Assembly (NCBI RefSeq): GCF_000807675.2
Contig: NZ_CP019962.1
Span: forward strand, 1,178,001-1,242,000
Source of the DNA: Eubacterium limosum
Lineage (GTDB): Bacteria > Bacillota > Clostridia > Eubacteriales > Eubacteriaceae
Direction of reading: 5' to 3'
Length of the DNA: 64,000 bases
Below are positions 44,212 through 50,566 of the stretch, piece by piece. How positions within the stretch are numbered: the stretch's first letter is position 1; each line of letters begins with the position of its first letter. The notes beneath the pieces were generated by a model. That model saw only the letters and a list, made by a program, of their open reading frames with translations, was not told the origin of the DNA and did no database searches. A program made the position numbers and the translations under genes.

Positions 44212-44892
44212 CTACGGCGTTTCATCGAGAGAATGAAAATCATCTTCAAAATGAATGTTGTCAAGATCAATATAGCGCATAAGCTTATTGCAGTGCTTTA
44301 TATTCTTATCAATAATCTCAGGAGTAACGCCAGCCAACCGGACGGAAATGGTTGATAAAAAGTCGGTAAAATCTATGGAAATTTCCTTGTTGGGGGAGTT
44401 GTAGATATCCTGATAAAGCGCTTTTCGAGCGCCATATTCAGCGACGGTCAGTTTTCTGAACATTTGTGGCTGTATGTCGAGATCGAACTCCAGAATAATG
44501 GCAGACATGGAGCTGCGAATATAATTATGGGTCGCATCCAGGTAAAGCTCTTTTTCACGGAGAAGACTATATAGTTCTGAGGCCGCGGGGGTCTCAAAAA
44601 TTTTAATGAAAAAAATACGATTAAATAATATGTGCATTTGGAACTGGTTCTCGATCATAAAGCCAAGCTTTTTGTTTAGAAAACGGCGAATATAAAGAAT
44701 AAAGTCGTGAAATATCTGACCGACAATTTCTTCTTTTTTGAAATAATAATTCACCAGTCCAACCGAAACACCAGCTTTTTCAGCGATTAACGCAATTGTT
44801 GTTTTACGGTAGCCTAGTTCTAGGAAAAGTGCTTTTGCTGTATATAAAATGTTTTCTCTTTGTCCATCGTCTGTATTTTTGTATGTATCCAT
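44212..44892 (-). CDS. TetR/AcrR-family regulator of the URO-D cluster
   Basis: TetR-type regulator of 226 residues with a standard N-terminal helix-turn-helix (about 13-52: ENILYTAKALFLELGYRKTTIALIAEKAG and SVGLVNYYFKKEE). The C-terminal ligand domain has no match I can name. It is transcribed away from the URO-D/transporter cluster, 200 bp apart, and an inverted repeat (45043-45068) sits at the start point of that cluster's promoter. It probably represses the cluster in the absence of its substrate. The ribosome-binding site before 44892 reads GAGGATGG. Confidence 0.88.
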   Translation of the reverse strand: MDTYKNTDDGQRENILYTAKALFLELGYRKTTIALIAEKAGVSVGLVNYYFKKEEIVGQIFHDFILYIRRFLNKKLGFMIENQFQMHILFNRIFFIKIFETPAASELYSLLREKELYLDATHNYIRSSMSAIILEFDLDIQPQMFRKLTVAEYGARKALYQDIYNSPNKEISIDFTDFLSTISVRLAGVTPEIIDKNIKHCNKLMRYIDLDNIHFEDDFHSLDETP

Positions 44893-45013: not shown

Positions 45014-45042
45014 TTGACAGGAAAACGAGTTCATTGTATTAT
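45014..45042 (+). promoter_or_regulatory. Promoter of the URO-D cluster
   Basis: TTGACA (45014-45019), 17 nt, TATTAT (45037-45042): very close to consensus. Confidence 0.8.
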
Positions 45043-45068
45043 ACTGAATATAGAATTGAATATTCAGT
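45043..45068 (+). promoter_or_regulatory. Probable TetR operator
   Basis: ACTGAATA (45043-45050) and TATTCAGT (45061-45068) form an 8-bp inverted repeat with a 10-nt spacer, directly behind the -10 box; a further half site ATTCAGT follows at 45074-45080. Confidence 0.6.
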
Positions 45069-45092
45069 TTAAAATTCAGTCAGGAGGGGTAC

Positions 45093-46261: not shown

Positions 46262-46408
46262 ATGGACGAAAATACAAAATATCTGGCAACCTGGAAAGAA
46301 TACTGTGAACAAAATGAAATTGACTATGAGGAAAACAGCTATCTCGAGCCATACTGGCAGGTGGCACAGGAGAAGCTGTTTGGATTTGTCATTAAACTGT
46401 TAATATGA
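46262..46408 (+). CDS. Small 48-residue protein 1 behind URO-D gene 1
   Basis: Unnamed small protein of 48 residues, 11 nt behind the first URO-D gene, with AGGAGGG at 46250-46256 as strong ribosome-binding site. It is acidic in its first two thirds (MDENTKYLATWKEYC...) and ends in a hydrophobic FGFVIKLLI. The protein at 50371-50517 has the same length, the same position behind a URO-D paralogue and 14 of 48 identical residues without gaps (M1, N4, Y7, E16, E19, I20, E23, Y27, Q33, E37, F40, F42, L46, L47). Conservation of position, length and sequence argues that both are real. I know no family for it; a partner or chaperone subunit of the URO-D protein is a guess. Confidence 0.75.
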   Translation: MDENTKYLATWKEYCEQNEIDYEENSYLEPYWQVAQEKLFGFVIKLLI

Positions 46409-46454
46409 ATGAACGGATTTTATACGCTATGATAGGCAAGATGAGGAGATCGAG

Positions 46455-47822
46455 ATGAAAAAATTAAGTAATTACATAAAATTTTCATATGGCTTTGCAG
46501 ATTTATGCTTTATTTTTATGGTTACATTTTCAAATACTTACTATCTGGTTTTTTTTACAGAGGTATTGAAAATTTCTCCAGTTCAGGCAGGGGTTATCAT
46601 GACCTTTGGCCGTATTTTGGACACGATCAGTGTTCCGATACTTGGACCAATTATTGAAAAAAGTAATTTTAAATGGGGGCGCTACCGTTCATGGATACTC
46701 ATTGGTTCGTTCTTTATACTTCTTTTCAATACAATTATGTGTGCAAACCTGACAGGACTGCCTGAAGGTGCCTACATTGTGCTCTATACGATTTTCTATG
46801 CGGCATTCTGTATTGCCACTAATGTTTCATACATTGGCTATACATCCTTAAATTCAACACTGACGGTTGATGCGGCGGAGCGTGTGCAGCTCTCCACCTT
46901 CCGCGGGCAGGGAAACTCCATTGGCAAAATTCTGGCTGGCTGGTGCCTGCTGCCATTAATCTATCTGGTTGCCGGCGCTCAGGAAATGACCGTACAGGGA
47001 TTCTTTATTACAGCTTTGTTATTAGGGCTTCTGACGGTTTTAGGATATGGGAATCTTTTTGCGGCCACAAAAGACTACAAGGATTCAGGCGTTACTGTCA
47101 AGGGTGGTAAGGCCGAAAAAGTCACAGTCGCACAGATGTTTAAGCAGGTGGTAACAAACCGTCCGCTTTTGGCGATTTTAGTGGCAGATATATGCAGAGT
47201 ATTAACAACGCTGTTGATTGTTGCAATGTTCCCTTATTTTTACATCTATGTTGTCAAAAATCCGGATATCATTCCAACATTTTTCGGATTGACCAGTATT
47301 CTCATGCTTATTGGGTCAACGCTTGTACCGTTCATCACCAAAAAGCTGACAAAAAAACAAACCTATATTTTAGGTATGGTTTGGATTTGTGCTGCGTTGG
47401 TGCTCATGTTCTTTAACGCAAATAATGCGACGCTCGTTTTGATTATTGCCTGTATCGGCTATGTGGGGGTCGCCTTCCCGAACGTTGTCAATACAGCCAT
47501 GTACGCAGATATCACTGATTACAGCGAATGGAAAACAGGTTATAATGCCCGAGCGGTTATATTCAGTGTTTACCAGCTTTCCATAAAAATTGCGGCGGTA
47601 TTCTCGACGAGCGTAGCAGCCTTTGGCCTTGGGCTTATCGGCCTTCAAAGCGGGGTTGAGCCAATGCCGGAAGTCATAGAAGGTATAAAATCGCTGGCAA
47701 TGTTTTTCCCGGCAGGCGTCAGCCTGGTCGCTGTGATTGCGATGCTGTTTTATAACGTCAATGAAAGAAAATTACCAGAATTGCGCGCTGAAATCGCGGA
47801 AAGAAAGATGGCTGACAATTAA
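46455..47822 (+). CDS. GPH-family (MelB-like) MFS transporter
   Basis: Sodium- or proton-coupled symporter of the glycoside-pentoside-hexuronide type, 455 residues with twelve hydrophobic segments. Marks are SYGFADLCFIFM at the N terminus, GRILDTISVPILGPIIEKSNFKWGRYRSWILIG (GPH signature) near 52-84 and the central loop with KVTVAQMFKQVVTNRPLLAI. It lies behind URO-D gene 1 and its small protein, ahead of an APC permease, and probably imports the compound the cluster uses. GATGAGGAG precedes ATG 46455. The substrate is unknown; GPH members carry sugars but some carry other organic anions. Confidence 0.87.
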   Translation: MKKLSNYIKFSYGFADLCFIFMVTFSNTYYLVFFTEVLKISPVQAGVIMTFGRILDTISVPILGPIIEKSNFKWGRYRSWILIGSFFILLFNTIMCANLTGLPEGAYIVLYTIFYAAFCIATNVSYIGYTSLNSTLTVDAAERVQLSTFRGQGNSIGKILAGWCLLPLIYLVAGAQEMTVQGFFITALLLGLLTVLGYGNLFAATKDYKDSGVTVKGGKAEKVTVAQMFKQVVTNRPLLAILVADICRVLTTLLIVAMFPYFYIYVVKNPDIIPTFFGLTSILMLIGSTLVPFITKKLTKKQTYILGMVWICAALVLMFFNANNATLVLIIACIGYVGVAFPNVVNTAMYADITDYSEWKTGYNARAVIFSVYQLSIKIAAVFSTSVAAFGLGLIGLQSGVEPMPEVIEGIKSLAMFFPAGVSLVAVIAMLFYNVNERKLPELRAEIAERKMADN

Positions 47823-47869
47823 AGATTGAGGCAGTGAGTTAACAGACTTATCTGCCAGGAGGTTACCAG

Positions 47870-49207
47870 ATGAAAAAAGACAACAGGCTTTCTTTTTTCG
47901 AAACACTTACGATGGCAACCGGTTTTACAATAGGATCAGGAATTATTACGCTGACAGGTATCGGCATTGGAATGACTGGCAGAAGCGTTTTTATAGCATT
48001 TGCAGTGTGCGCTGTCCTGTTTCTGATCTCTTTTCGGCCCCTCTTTATTATGAGCAGCGTTCTTCCAAGAATGAGCGCTGCGTACAGCTACTCTAAAGAG
48101 CTGATTACAAAAGAGGCTGGCGGTTTATATGTATATATTTACTTTTTTGGACGGATCACGATTGCGATTTTTGGCATATCCATTGCGCAGTATCTGGCAA
48201 GCTTGATCCCCGCGCTTAACAATCCAGTGGGAATGAAGGTGGTGGCGGCAGGTGTTTTGACTTTGTTTTATATCATTAACCTTTTCGGTATAAAAAATGC
48301 AGCGATTGTGCAGAATGTACTCTTTGTTATTTTGGTATTCAGCCTGCTCTCCTTTGTTATTTTTGGCATTGGAAAGGTGGAATCCAATTTTTTTGAACAA
48401 AAAGCATTCTTCGTAAATGGATTCAGTGGGTTTTACTCTGCGGTTTCACTTTTATTTTTCGCTGTTGGGGGTGCATATATCATCACGGATTTTGCACCGA
48501 AGATCAGAAATCCTGAAAAGGTGATGACAAAGGTTATCTATATTGTGACCATTGGTGTGACGGTATTGTATATGTTTATTGGCATTGTGGCAAGCGGTGT
48601 GATTCCACAGGCCGAAGCAGCATACCAATCCCTGGTTGTCACGGCGCGCATTGTATATCCCAATAATTTGCTTTTCAGCATTTTCATTGTCGGTGGAGCG
48701 CTGGGAGCATTAATCACCACTCTAAATTCAAGCTTTGTATGGTATTCGAGCTCCTTGATTCAGGCCTGTAAGGATGGCTGGCTGCCGAAAGCCTGGGGAA
48801 AAACAAACAAATACGAGGTTCCCTACATCCTGACGACTATTTTCTATATTCTGGGGCTCATCCCTGCGCTTTTAGGGATGGATTTAACGGTGGTTTCTAA
48901 AATTGCGGTTGGTATGACGATTTTGTCGATATTGATCCCGATGGCAGGGATTTTGAAATTACCGGAGAAGTATCCAGAAGAATGGAAGCAAAGCGTTTAT
49001 TCGAAGCGTTATCCAAAATGGCGGCTCAGAACCATGGTGGTCATCACATACCTTATTATGTCCACCCAGGTATATGCTCTGTTTGCGGGGAATCCGGCAA
49101 CGGCAAATGTCATAATACTGCTTTATATTTTAGGAATAGGCTTATATTTGTTTTTTAAATCAAAATACAAGACATTAAAAACAGAAGGCGAAGGAGAGAA
49201 AGATTAG
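47870..49207 (+). CDS. APC-family amino acid/amine permease
   Basis: Permease of 445 residues with about twelve membrane segments of the amino acid-polyamine-organocation superfamily. The N terminus MATGFTIGSGIITLTGIGIGMTGRS is the glycine-rich unwound helix 1 of the fold; the second repeat begins near residue 180. CAGGAGG lies about 8 nt before ATG 47870. It sits between the GPH transporter and URO-D gene 2 (1-nt gap to the latter), so the cluster has two unrelated importers. An amine or amino-acid derivative as substrate would fit; it is inference. Confidence 0.87.
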   Translation: MKKDNRLSFFETLTMATGFTIGSGIITLTGIGIGMTGRSVFIAFAVCAVLFLISFRPLFIMSSVLPRMSAAYSYSKELITKEAGGLYVYIYFFGRITIAIFGISIAQYLASLIPALNNPVGMKVVAAGVLTLFYIINLFGIKNAAIVQNVLFVILVFSLLSFVIFGIGKVESNFFEQKAFFVNGFSGFYSAVSLLFFAVGGAYIITDFAPKIRNPEKVMTKVIYIVTIGVTVLYMFIGIVASGVIPQAEAAYQSLVVTARIVYPNNLLFSIFIVGGALGALITTLNSSFVWYSSSLIQACKDGWLPKAWGKTNKYEVPYILTTIFYILGLIPALLGMDLTVVSKIAVGMTILSILIPMAGILKLPEKYPEEWKQSVYSKRYPKWRLRTMVVITYLIMSTQVYALFAGNPATANVIILLYILGIGLYLFFKSKYKTLKTEGEGEKD

Positions 49208-49208
49208 T

Positions 49209-50360
49209 ATGGAAATAAATAAAAATACAGTTGAAAGAAATCAGCTTTACACCGATGTGCGTTCCGGAAAAATTCCCAAGCGTGTGCCCATTAATCTGAA
49301 CATGGACGCAGCCGCTGTCCTGGAGTATGCAGGCTACAATCTAAATATTCACCAGTTTGATATCAATTATCTGATAAAGGCCATGGAACGCGTCGCGGAG
49401 GATTTTGAAAGCGACAACCTTGGCGTCACAACTGTGCGGTTTCCGCATTTTTACAAGCTTCTGGGCGCAAGGCATTTTCAGATGGGGAGCGATGGCTTTC
49501 TGCAGCATCCGGAAATTTCTGTGATGGAGCCTGGGGAATATGACGCATTGATTGAAGCACCCTACAAATTCCTTTGGGATGCGATTATCCCAAGACTGTA
49601 TAAAGAACTCGATAAGCCGTGGCCGGAATCCTCTATGTCCCTGGCAAAAGGTTTTTCAAGCTTTTATGGAACAATGGGAAAAATCGGTGCAGCTAAAAAT
49701 GAAATCTGCCTTAAGTATGGTAAATCGAATCTGGGCGGTGCTTTTGCGCAAACAGATGCGCCCATGGATTTTATCGCAGACCTGCTCCGATCCTTTACGG
49801 GTATGTCCATGGATATTCGAAGGAATCCGGAAAAGGTTGAGGCAGCGTGTGAAGCGATCCTCCCACTGATGATCAAGGCAGGAGCCAAGGGAACGCCTGA
49901 GGTGCGCGGCGCCTGTATGATTCCGCTCCATATGGCAACCTATATTAAAGAGAAGGATTTTGAGCGCTTCTACTGGCCAACCTTTAAAAAGCTGGTTGAG
50001 GAGCTGGTTAAAACCAATACGGCAGTTTCAATTTTTATGGAAAATGATTTTACGCGCTACCTCGATTATATGCAGGAGCTTCCAGAGGGCTGCCAGTTGA
50101 TGGCAGAGTTTGGTGATCCCAGGCTTTTTAAAGAAAAACTTGGTTCAAAATTTATCCTCACAGGTTTTTATCCTCTGTCACTGCTTAAAGCAGGCACATT
50201 ACAGCAGGTGAAAGATAAGGCGAAGGAAATAATTGACGTGCTGGCGCCGGGCGGAAACTATATTTTCAGCTTAGACAAATCGCTGCTTCGGGCAAATGAC
50301 GCGGATATAAATCTGTATAAAGAATTATTGAATTTCGTTAAAGAATACGGCGTTTATTAA
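49209..50360 (+). CDS. URO-D-family (MtaA-like fold) protein 2
   Basis: Protein of 383 residues, a paralogue of URO-D protein 1 (shared PMDFIADLLRSFTGMSMDIRRNPEKVEAACEAILPLM versus its counterpart, IPLHMxxxxxEKDFxxxxWPTFK, DVLAPGGxYIF). As in protein 1 the H-x-C zinc motif of MtaA is absent; the strand reads SIFMENDFTRYLDYM. The two differ in the region around residues 160-180 and so may act on different partners or form a heteromer. The start at 49209 follows the permease stop by 1 nt with AAGGAGAG as ribosome-binding site, so translation is coupled. It is followed by the second small protein. Confidence 0.83.
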   Translation: MEINKNTVERNQLYTDVRSGKIPKRVPINLNMDAAAVLEYAGYNLNIHQFDINYLIKAMERVAEDFESDNLGVTTVRFPHFYKLLGARHFQMGSDGFLQHPEISVMEPGEYDALIEAPYKFLWDAIIPRLYKELDKPWPESSMSLAKGFSSFYGTMGKIGAAKNEICLKYGKSNLGGAFAQTDAPMDFIADLLRSFTGMSMDIRRNPEKVEAACEAILPLMIKAGAKGTPEVRGACMIPLHMATYIKEKDFERFYWPTFKKLVEELVKTNTAVSIFMENDFTRYLDYMQELPEGCQLMAEFGDPRLFKEKLGSKFILTGFYPLSLLKAGTLQQVKDKAKEIIDVLAPGGNYIFSLDKSLLRANDADINLYKELLNFVKEYGVY

Positions 50361-50370
50361 GGAGAAAAAG

Positions 50371-50517
50371 ATGAATATCAATTCCGAATACTATAATGAT
50401 TATGAAGCAAATATTGAAAAATATGAGATTCCCAAAGAAGCGATTCCATATGCCATTGAGGCTTTTCAGGGAAATGAAGAGATGATTTTTAGTTTTGCGA
50501 TGTTCTTACTGATGTAA
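50371..50517 (+). CDS. Small 48-residue protein 2 behind URO-D gene 2
   Basis: Small protein of 48 residues starting 10 nt behind URO-D gene 2 with AAGGAG as ribosome-binding site. It is acidic and tyrosine-rich at first (MNINSEYYNDYEANIEKYE) and ends in a hydrophobic FSFAMFLLM. It aligns over its whole length, without gaps, to the 46262-46408 product. It is the last gene before a strong terminator. No known family; see the paralogue for the argument that it is real. Confidence 0.75.
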   Translation: MNINSEYYNDYEANIEKYEIPKEAIPYAIEAFQGNEEMIFSFAMFLLM

Positions 50518-50526
50518 TACAAATAT

Positions 50527-50566
50527 AAAAAGCCCGGTTTTTCAAAAGAAAAACCGGGCTTTTTAA
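50527..50566. terminator. Bidirectional intrinsic terminator
   Basis: A perfect stem of about 17 bp (50529-50545 region with 50550-50566) with GCCCGG/CCGGGC core and A and T flanks ends both the URO-D cluster and the convergent ATPase gene. Confidence 0.9.

Follow-up and report, generated by a model that had tools for sequence, protein, structure and literature searches.

Two open reading frames (ORFs) of 48 codons plus a stop lie directly behind two URO-D-family genes in a 64,000-nucleotide stretch of Eubacterium limosum DNA (NZ_CP019962.1, positions 1,178,001 to 1,242,000; the whole analysed stretch is termed the window). Our analysis suggests, with a probability of about 0.8, that their products are the free form of a ~45-residue, probably non-catalytic domain, which would act as a second, stoichiometric subunit in one clade of UroD-type corrinoid-dependent methyltransferases of the methyltransferase I (MTI) kind. 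The MTI is the component that demethylates the substrate and passes the methyl group on to a corrinoid protein. In some members of the clade the domain would be the C-terminus of the enzyme, attached via a linker; in others it would be translated from a separate start codon just downstream of the enzyme gene. This view is based on the covalent fusion of the domain to URO-D in 10 of 34 paralogues of the source genome (seven of them confirmed by a profile built from outside sequences) and in many other Bacillota. A sequence-only reading of the window had named a subunit among the possible roles of the small proteins, and that role is now well supported.

Two small genes under purifying selection

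Small protein A (P0001; 46262..46408, + strand) and small protein B (P0002; 50371..50517, + strand), both of 48 residues, would be the free subunits paired with URO-D A and URO-D B, respectively. ORF A follows the end of its URO-D gene (46250) by 11 nucleotides and ORF B follows its own (50360) by 10. The ATG is preceded by the ribosome-binding site AGGAGGG in ORF A and AAGGAG in ORF B; both sites overlap the URO-D stop codon at its end. Aligned without gaps, the two proteins share 14 of 48 residues (shuffling P ~1e-5; P = 1.7e-4 when the hydrophobic end was shuffled separately from the rest). The equal length, the 10-11-nucleotide gaps, the strong ribosome-binding sites and the 14 identities had been reported in the sequence-only reading, and they held when re-measured.

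Comparison with genomes of the same genus showed 10 synonymous and 3 non-synonymous changes in ORF A relative to genome G001, and 8 and 1 relative to G003. The corresponding numbers for ORF B were 14 and 0 (G001), 13 and 0 (G003), and 16 and 4 (G002). The ratio of non-synonymous to synonymous substitution rates (dN/dS) was 0-0.05, far from neutral; therefore, both small ORFs are under strong purifying selection at the protein level.

The consensus of the small domain is EFKSKYYKTWEEY ... YEEMMFGFIMFLLM. In a 39-row alignment no column was invariant, and Y5 alone was nearly so. No cysteine or histidine reached half of the rows, which makes a cofactor role unlikely. Searches of Pfam gave a best E value of 0.037 with the 20 members of alignment A1 and 0.014 with 14 members of alignment A6, the matches being to unrelated families and found in one or two members. 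In NCBIfam the best E value was 0.028 (39 members of alignment A4, unrelated families), and in PDB the A4 profile reached at best 0.31, with a few chains of unrelated families. Membership in a described small-protein or domain family was ruled out by the lack of a match in these three databases. No such small protein was found among the titles and abstract openings listed by searches of an open-access library, and the main texts of PMC13222342, PMC10418091 and PMC8630106 nowhere contain the term "small protein". The enzyme class is already known; for the detachable subunit there appears to be no earlier description.

Free and fused forms of one domain

A search of the source genome (4.4 Mb) with URO-D B revealed 34 homologues at E ≤ 0.001. 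A separate ORF of 40-51 residues begins 8-61 nucleotides behind the stop codon in 24 of them, the distance being 8-16 nucleotides in 19. The other 10 have a C-terminal extension instead; nine of these extensions carry the small-domain pattern, and the tenth (L034), which adjoins a corrinoid-protein-like gene, also has a tail that looks alike by eye. The small ORFs were chosen by eye, and the most divergent ones rest on position, size, ribosome-binding site and pattern. When 33 of the 34 proteins were aligned (L034 left out), the free-type URO-D proteins stopped, mostly at E-Y-G-x-Y, where the fused ones continue into the linker. As a negative control, four other full-length URO-D-superfamily genes (L181-L184) have neither a tail nor an ATG-led small ORF directly behind them; the short TTG- or GTG-led ORFs behind L181 and L182 lack the small-domain pattern. 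The control set excludes a fifth match (L190), which was partial and not comparable. The claim that a real small-protein family is tied to URO-D genes is supported by a free or fused piece at all 34 homologues, and this family extends far beyond two members.

Three side observations concern this gene set. With 34 close MTI-like paralogues and four others, it is strikingly large for a 4.4-Mb genome. The corrinoid-protein-like gene at L034:3656-4288 seems to lose its frame near the C-terminus, a possible pseudogene or sequencing error. L182 and L183, taken by eye to be of the MtaA/CmuA kind, have a different, thioredoxin-like C-terminal domain and a CobW-like GTPase gene behind them, domain and gene being recognised by eye.

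Homology of the free and fused forms was examined on a set of 782 sequences: 480 were shuffles, 278 were further short ORFs of the window, and the remaining 24 were the small proteins of the source genome. When 64 fused tails taken from other genomes were made into a profile, it matched P0002 (E 1.4e-7) and P0001 (E 7.5e-4); the best control, a shuffle, scored 0.15. The reverse search used a profile built from 36 free ORFs of other genomes, with the 10 own tails added to the sequence set, and gave E values of 2.7e-11 for P0001 and 3.6e-11 for P0002, the best control (again a shuffle) being 0.053. This profile also recovered own fused tails (best E 6.6e-11); below E 0.01 it found 16 of the 24 free proteins and 7 of the 10 tails. 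The training loci include three of the close relative Eubacterium callanderi, so that near-identical orthologues of some own members (e.g. L007 for the free profile) stand among the training rows; none of P0001 or P0002 was noticed there. An earlier own-genome profile (A1) gave 22 matches at E ≤ 10, all at URO-D genes, 20 of which are circular in being rows of A1 itself. The profile matches indicate common ancestry of the free and fused domains; the occurrence of both forms with the same enzyme, one beside it and the other within it, is what a detachable domain or split subunit presents.

The same arrangement was found in other genomes. A scan of named genomes with a fused query yielded 79 loci, all from Bacillota by record title (the best 80 of 529 confirmed stretches were considered); because the query was fused, this set is skewed to fused forms. 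These loci contain 114 URO-D ORFs; 109 of them span 250 or more profile positions and are not truncated ahead of the tail. Sixty-four of the 109 are fused (61 by the small profile at E < 1, three by eye) and 41 have a free partner (35 by profile, six by position). In six apparent exceptions, divergent small ORFs were present on closer inspection. A census with less bias was made in four of the ten relatives searched; it covered every URO-D profile match at E ≤ 1e-20, with assignment by eye. The small piece was present at 36 of 39 URO-D (12 fused, 24 free): 21 of 22 in G028 (8 fused, 13 free), 5 of 6 in G006 (2 and 3), 5 of 5 in G013 (1 and 4), and 5 of 6 in G024 (1 and 4). Two of the 24 free ORFs have TTG starts, and several are of a shorter type.

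Homologues adjoining URO-D genes elsewhere, for which the sequence-only reading had proposed a search, were also found with a profile of the small domain. URO-D was adjacent or fused in 27 of 27 opened loci of relatives, where 15 of 41 genomes matched, and in 28 of 28 opened loci of a phylum-wide draw, where 26 of 398 genomes matched (own genome included in both). A collection of plasmids gave no match. The shorter ORF (36-45 residues) occupies the same place in some members of the clade, with 36-41 residues behind the more distant URO-D genes of L286, L135, L158, L164, L165, and own L027 and L031; it could have diverged from the main type or replaced it independently. Corrinoid-protein genes were present in the fetched stretch of 36 of the 79 related loci and MtrH-like methyltransferase II (MTII) genes in 23; one example of each was scanned and matched PF02310/PF02607 (corrinoid protein) and PF00809 (MTII). 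As a separate observation, L165:5480-6289 (and L164:5481-6290 by eye) holds an ATP-pyrophosphatase-like gene between the URO-D/small pair and the MTII gene, with matches to QueC, NAD synthase and Asn synthase.

In a FastTree tree of 143 URO-D proteins the label fused or free needs four changes, at least three of which are forced by starred branches; the long branches make the deepest change uncertain. The fused and free forms have evidently interchanged at least three times. A mirror-tree comparison of the 24 own small/URO-D pairs gave a distance correlation of r = 0.889, and none of 5000 permutations was as high. This correlation reflects pairwise co-inheritance, which is compatible with binding and is not a proof of it.

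A second cluster, at another place in the source genome (L307:2514-7435; G000:C1:2690013-2694934), has the order TetR, A', small A', GPH-like symporter, B', small B' (TetR and GPH by eye). URO-D A is 82% identical to A' and URO-D B 79% identical to B'; A and B are 40% identical to each other. The small proteins are 69% (A vs A') and 60% (B vs B') identical between the clusters. Because URO-D A and B are only 40% alike and each has a closer partner in the second cluster, the more recently duplicated unit is the whole cluster. Judged from these identities, small A and small B are old paralogues and the A/B split is ancient. Of the earlier proposal of a duplicated two-gene module, the duplication stands; the unit has to be revised, since the recent copy comprises TetR, URO-D A, small A, the GPH-like gene, URO-D B and small B. 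The 34 own-genome homologues and the second cluster rule out a local duplication peculiar to the window.

Role of the small domain

We propose that the small protein docks onto its cognate URO-D in the manner that is obligatory for the fused form. The amphipathic C-terminal helix (YEEMMFGFIMFLLM) and the YYKTWEEY segment would pack on the barrel, perhaps at the insert region of its N-terminal half, and the docked domain would complete the fold, the dimer or the substrate channel. A coupling analysis of 170 pairs (82 fused; effective number of sequences, Neff, 81) hints at the same place. Barrel position 149 (A151 in P0003, G148 in P0004) with small-domain position 42 (F42 in both) ranked 13th of 88,410 pairs, with a z of 7.4 vs at most 6.8 in 19 re-pairings within clusters; it is a weak hint at the N-terminal insert region as a candidate docking site.

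Several observations weigh against the second-subunit interpretation. Neither form is present at four distant URO-D ORFs of the named loci, nor at three of the 39 in the census, the latter being distant or partial matches. Eight of the 24 own free ORFs and three of the 10 own tails (L014, L021, L034) were not below E 0.01 and rest on position, size, pattern and by-eye choice. The shorter type shows no homology to the main type detectable by hhalign. The mirror-tree correlation is also expected from simple co-inheritance. In the coupling analysis, inter-domain pairs were not enriched in the top 200 (32 vs 39.5 expected); the pair 149/42 led the inter-domain pairs when the fused rows were taken by themselves (6.68) and lay outside the top six when the free rows were; and a charge swap at 121/5, opposite in 114 of 117 rows, amounts to about one independent switch. 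Finally, CdmB, the chloromethane:corrinoid methyltransferase of Acetobacterium dehalogenans, ends at the barrel (protein chain compared) and, according to the excerpted text of PMC13222342, is active without a fused domain; thus the fold as such does not need the small domain.

Four other explanations have been weighed. The ORFs are short and unlisted, as expected of chance or non-coding sequence (a leader, attenuator or spacer), yet they accumulated up to 14 synonymous against no non-synonymous changes and are homologous to protein tails; at the level of selection, dN/dS refutes chance ORFs, and this explanation can practically be dismissed. A tether that holds the enzyme to the membrane or to a neighbouring transporter, another role named in the sequence-only reading, would fit the hydrophobic C-terminal end and the transporter genes between the two pairs. 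However, the hydrophobic end spans ~12 residues and is too short for a membrane span. The threshold for a transmembrane segment is a Kyte-Doolittle value of at least 1.6 across 19 residues; none of 126 sequences reached it, the maximum being 1.07. The fused version is moreover the end of an enzyme, and a relative of the window GPH transporter was not found in the fetched stretch of 64 of the 79 loci. The tether was accordingly not supported and is highly improbable.

A dedicated folding or assembly chaperone that leaves its URO-D partner after folding would likewise be adjacent, translated in order and co-diverging with URO-D, and the conserved hydrophobic end could hold an unfolded partner. 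Covalent fusion is common, however (64 of 109 in the set biased by the fused query; 12 of 39 in the census), and is needless for a transient helper. The existence of the covalently fused form makes a permanent subunit likelier, and we regard a chaperone as unlikely. Instead of belonging to the substrate pocket, the domain might be a docking adapter on the URO-D enzyme that recruits a shared B12 (corrinoid) protein or an activating enzyme. In favour of an adapter, the partners are MTI-like, and corrinoid-protein genes occur in 36 of the 79 related loci; by eye, with no profile scan made, no corrinoid-protein or MTII gene was recognised among the window ORFs at 40-56 kb, so that the corrinoid protein may need recruiting from elsewhere. 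A shared partner should hold one face of the adapter constant, yet the 39-row alignment has no invariant column and a single near-invariant one (Y5), the small proteins diverge faster between the clusters than their enzymes do (69% vs 82% and 60% vs 79% identity), and CdmB cooperates with its corrinoid protein with no such domain fused to it (excerpted text of PMC13222342). These points leave an adapter doubtful.

The second-subunit interpretation can tentatively be taken one step further. Possibly the whole clade (34 copies here) consists of two-part enzymes in which the 40-50-residue subunit, separate or fused, contributes to the substrate channel or lid and, diverging in step with its own enzyme, sets specificity. 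If this is true, any assay of such an enzyme without the small ORF used an incomplete enzyme. Which methylated compounds anaerobes can demethylate is decided by their MTIs, and for many paralogues of the UroD type no substrate is known; A. dehalogenans has 26 methyltransferase systems, with clades of unknown substrate marked, according to the excerpted text of PMC13222342. If a tiny second chain is needed, expression constructs, knock-outs and structure models that omit it would be incomplete. The small-domain family could serve as a marker for spotting such enzymes in genomes.

Neighbouring genes and known methyltransferases

URO-D A (P0003; 45093..46250, + strand; 385 residues) ends ..YGKY, the point at which the chain of fused relatives runs on into the small domain, and URO-D B (P0004; 49209..50360, + strand; 383 residues) ends ..YGVY. 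Both are methyltransferase-like members of the URO-D family, matching Pfam PF01208 with 64.1 bits (E 1.5e-17) for P0003 and 44.8 bits (E 1.1e-11) for P0004 at a gathering cut-off of 23.9. A true uroporphyrinogen decarboxylase (HemE) was rejected, as the two proteins scored 19.8 and 18.3 bits against the TIGR01464 cut-off of 302.95. A GPH/MFS_2 cation symporter gene (46455..47822, + strand) and an APC-type amino acid permease gene (AA_permease_2; 47870..49207, + strand) are located between the two URO-D/small pairs; the second cluster lacks such a permease gene between its pairs.

A TetR-family regulator gene (44212..44892, - strand) is divergent from URO-D A. Before URO-D A lies a promoter-like site, TTGACA-17-TATTAT (45014..45042, + strand; 11/12), which is a consensus match only and comes from a scan that gave 10 sites vs 13.6 in shuffles. 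An inverted repeat with 13-nucleotide arms, 92% complementary at a spacing of 8 nucleotides (45039..45072), is a candidate TetR operator; it overlaps the promoter-like site within 45014-45072, between the divergent TetR gene and URO-D A. Directly behind small B, between convergent genes, is a terminator-like hairpin of 18 pairs (50526..50565, scored on the - strand; the scan gave 3 sites vs 6.0 in shuffles).

Among solved chains, CdmB (PDB 9rui, 9rul, 9ruo) was the sole significant sequence match of the window URO-D proteins (E 4.7e-27 and 3.5e-33). Because of this homology and the frequent corrinoid-protein and MTII genes near relatives, the window URO-D partners are probably UroD-type corrinoid-dependent MTIs. 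MtaA/CmuA-family methyltransferases share PF01208 with the window proteins, which nevertheless score far below the curated MtaA/CmuA cut-offs. The O-demethylase MTIs MtvB, OdmB, VdmB and MtoB belong to the UroD superfamily, as do the window enzymes, and operate in corrinoid systems of three or four components (excerpted texts of PMC13222342, PMC8630106 and PMC12915777). Eubacterium limosum is itself open to genetic work, CRISPR mutants being described in PMC12915777. CdmB itself is a UroD-superfamily TIM-barrel MTI like the window proteins; as described in the excerpted text of PMC13222342, it is a homodimer that passes the methyl group to a corrinoid protein, and extensions between its first three strands form the dimer and a hydrophobic channel. 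It has 429 residues, and the match lies ~40 residues further from the N-terminus than in the window URO-D proteins. Its barrel ends ..GKY, the same as in URO-D A.

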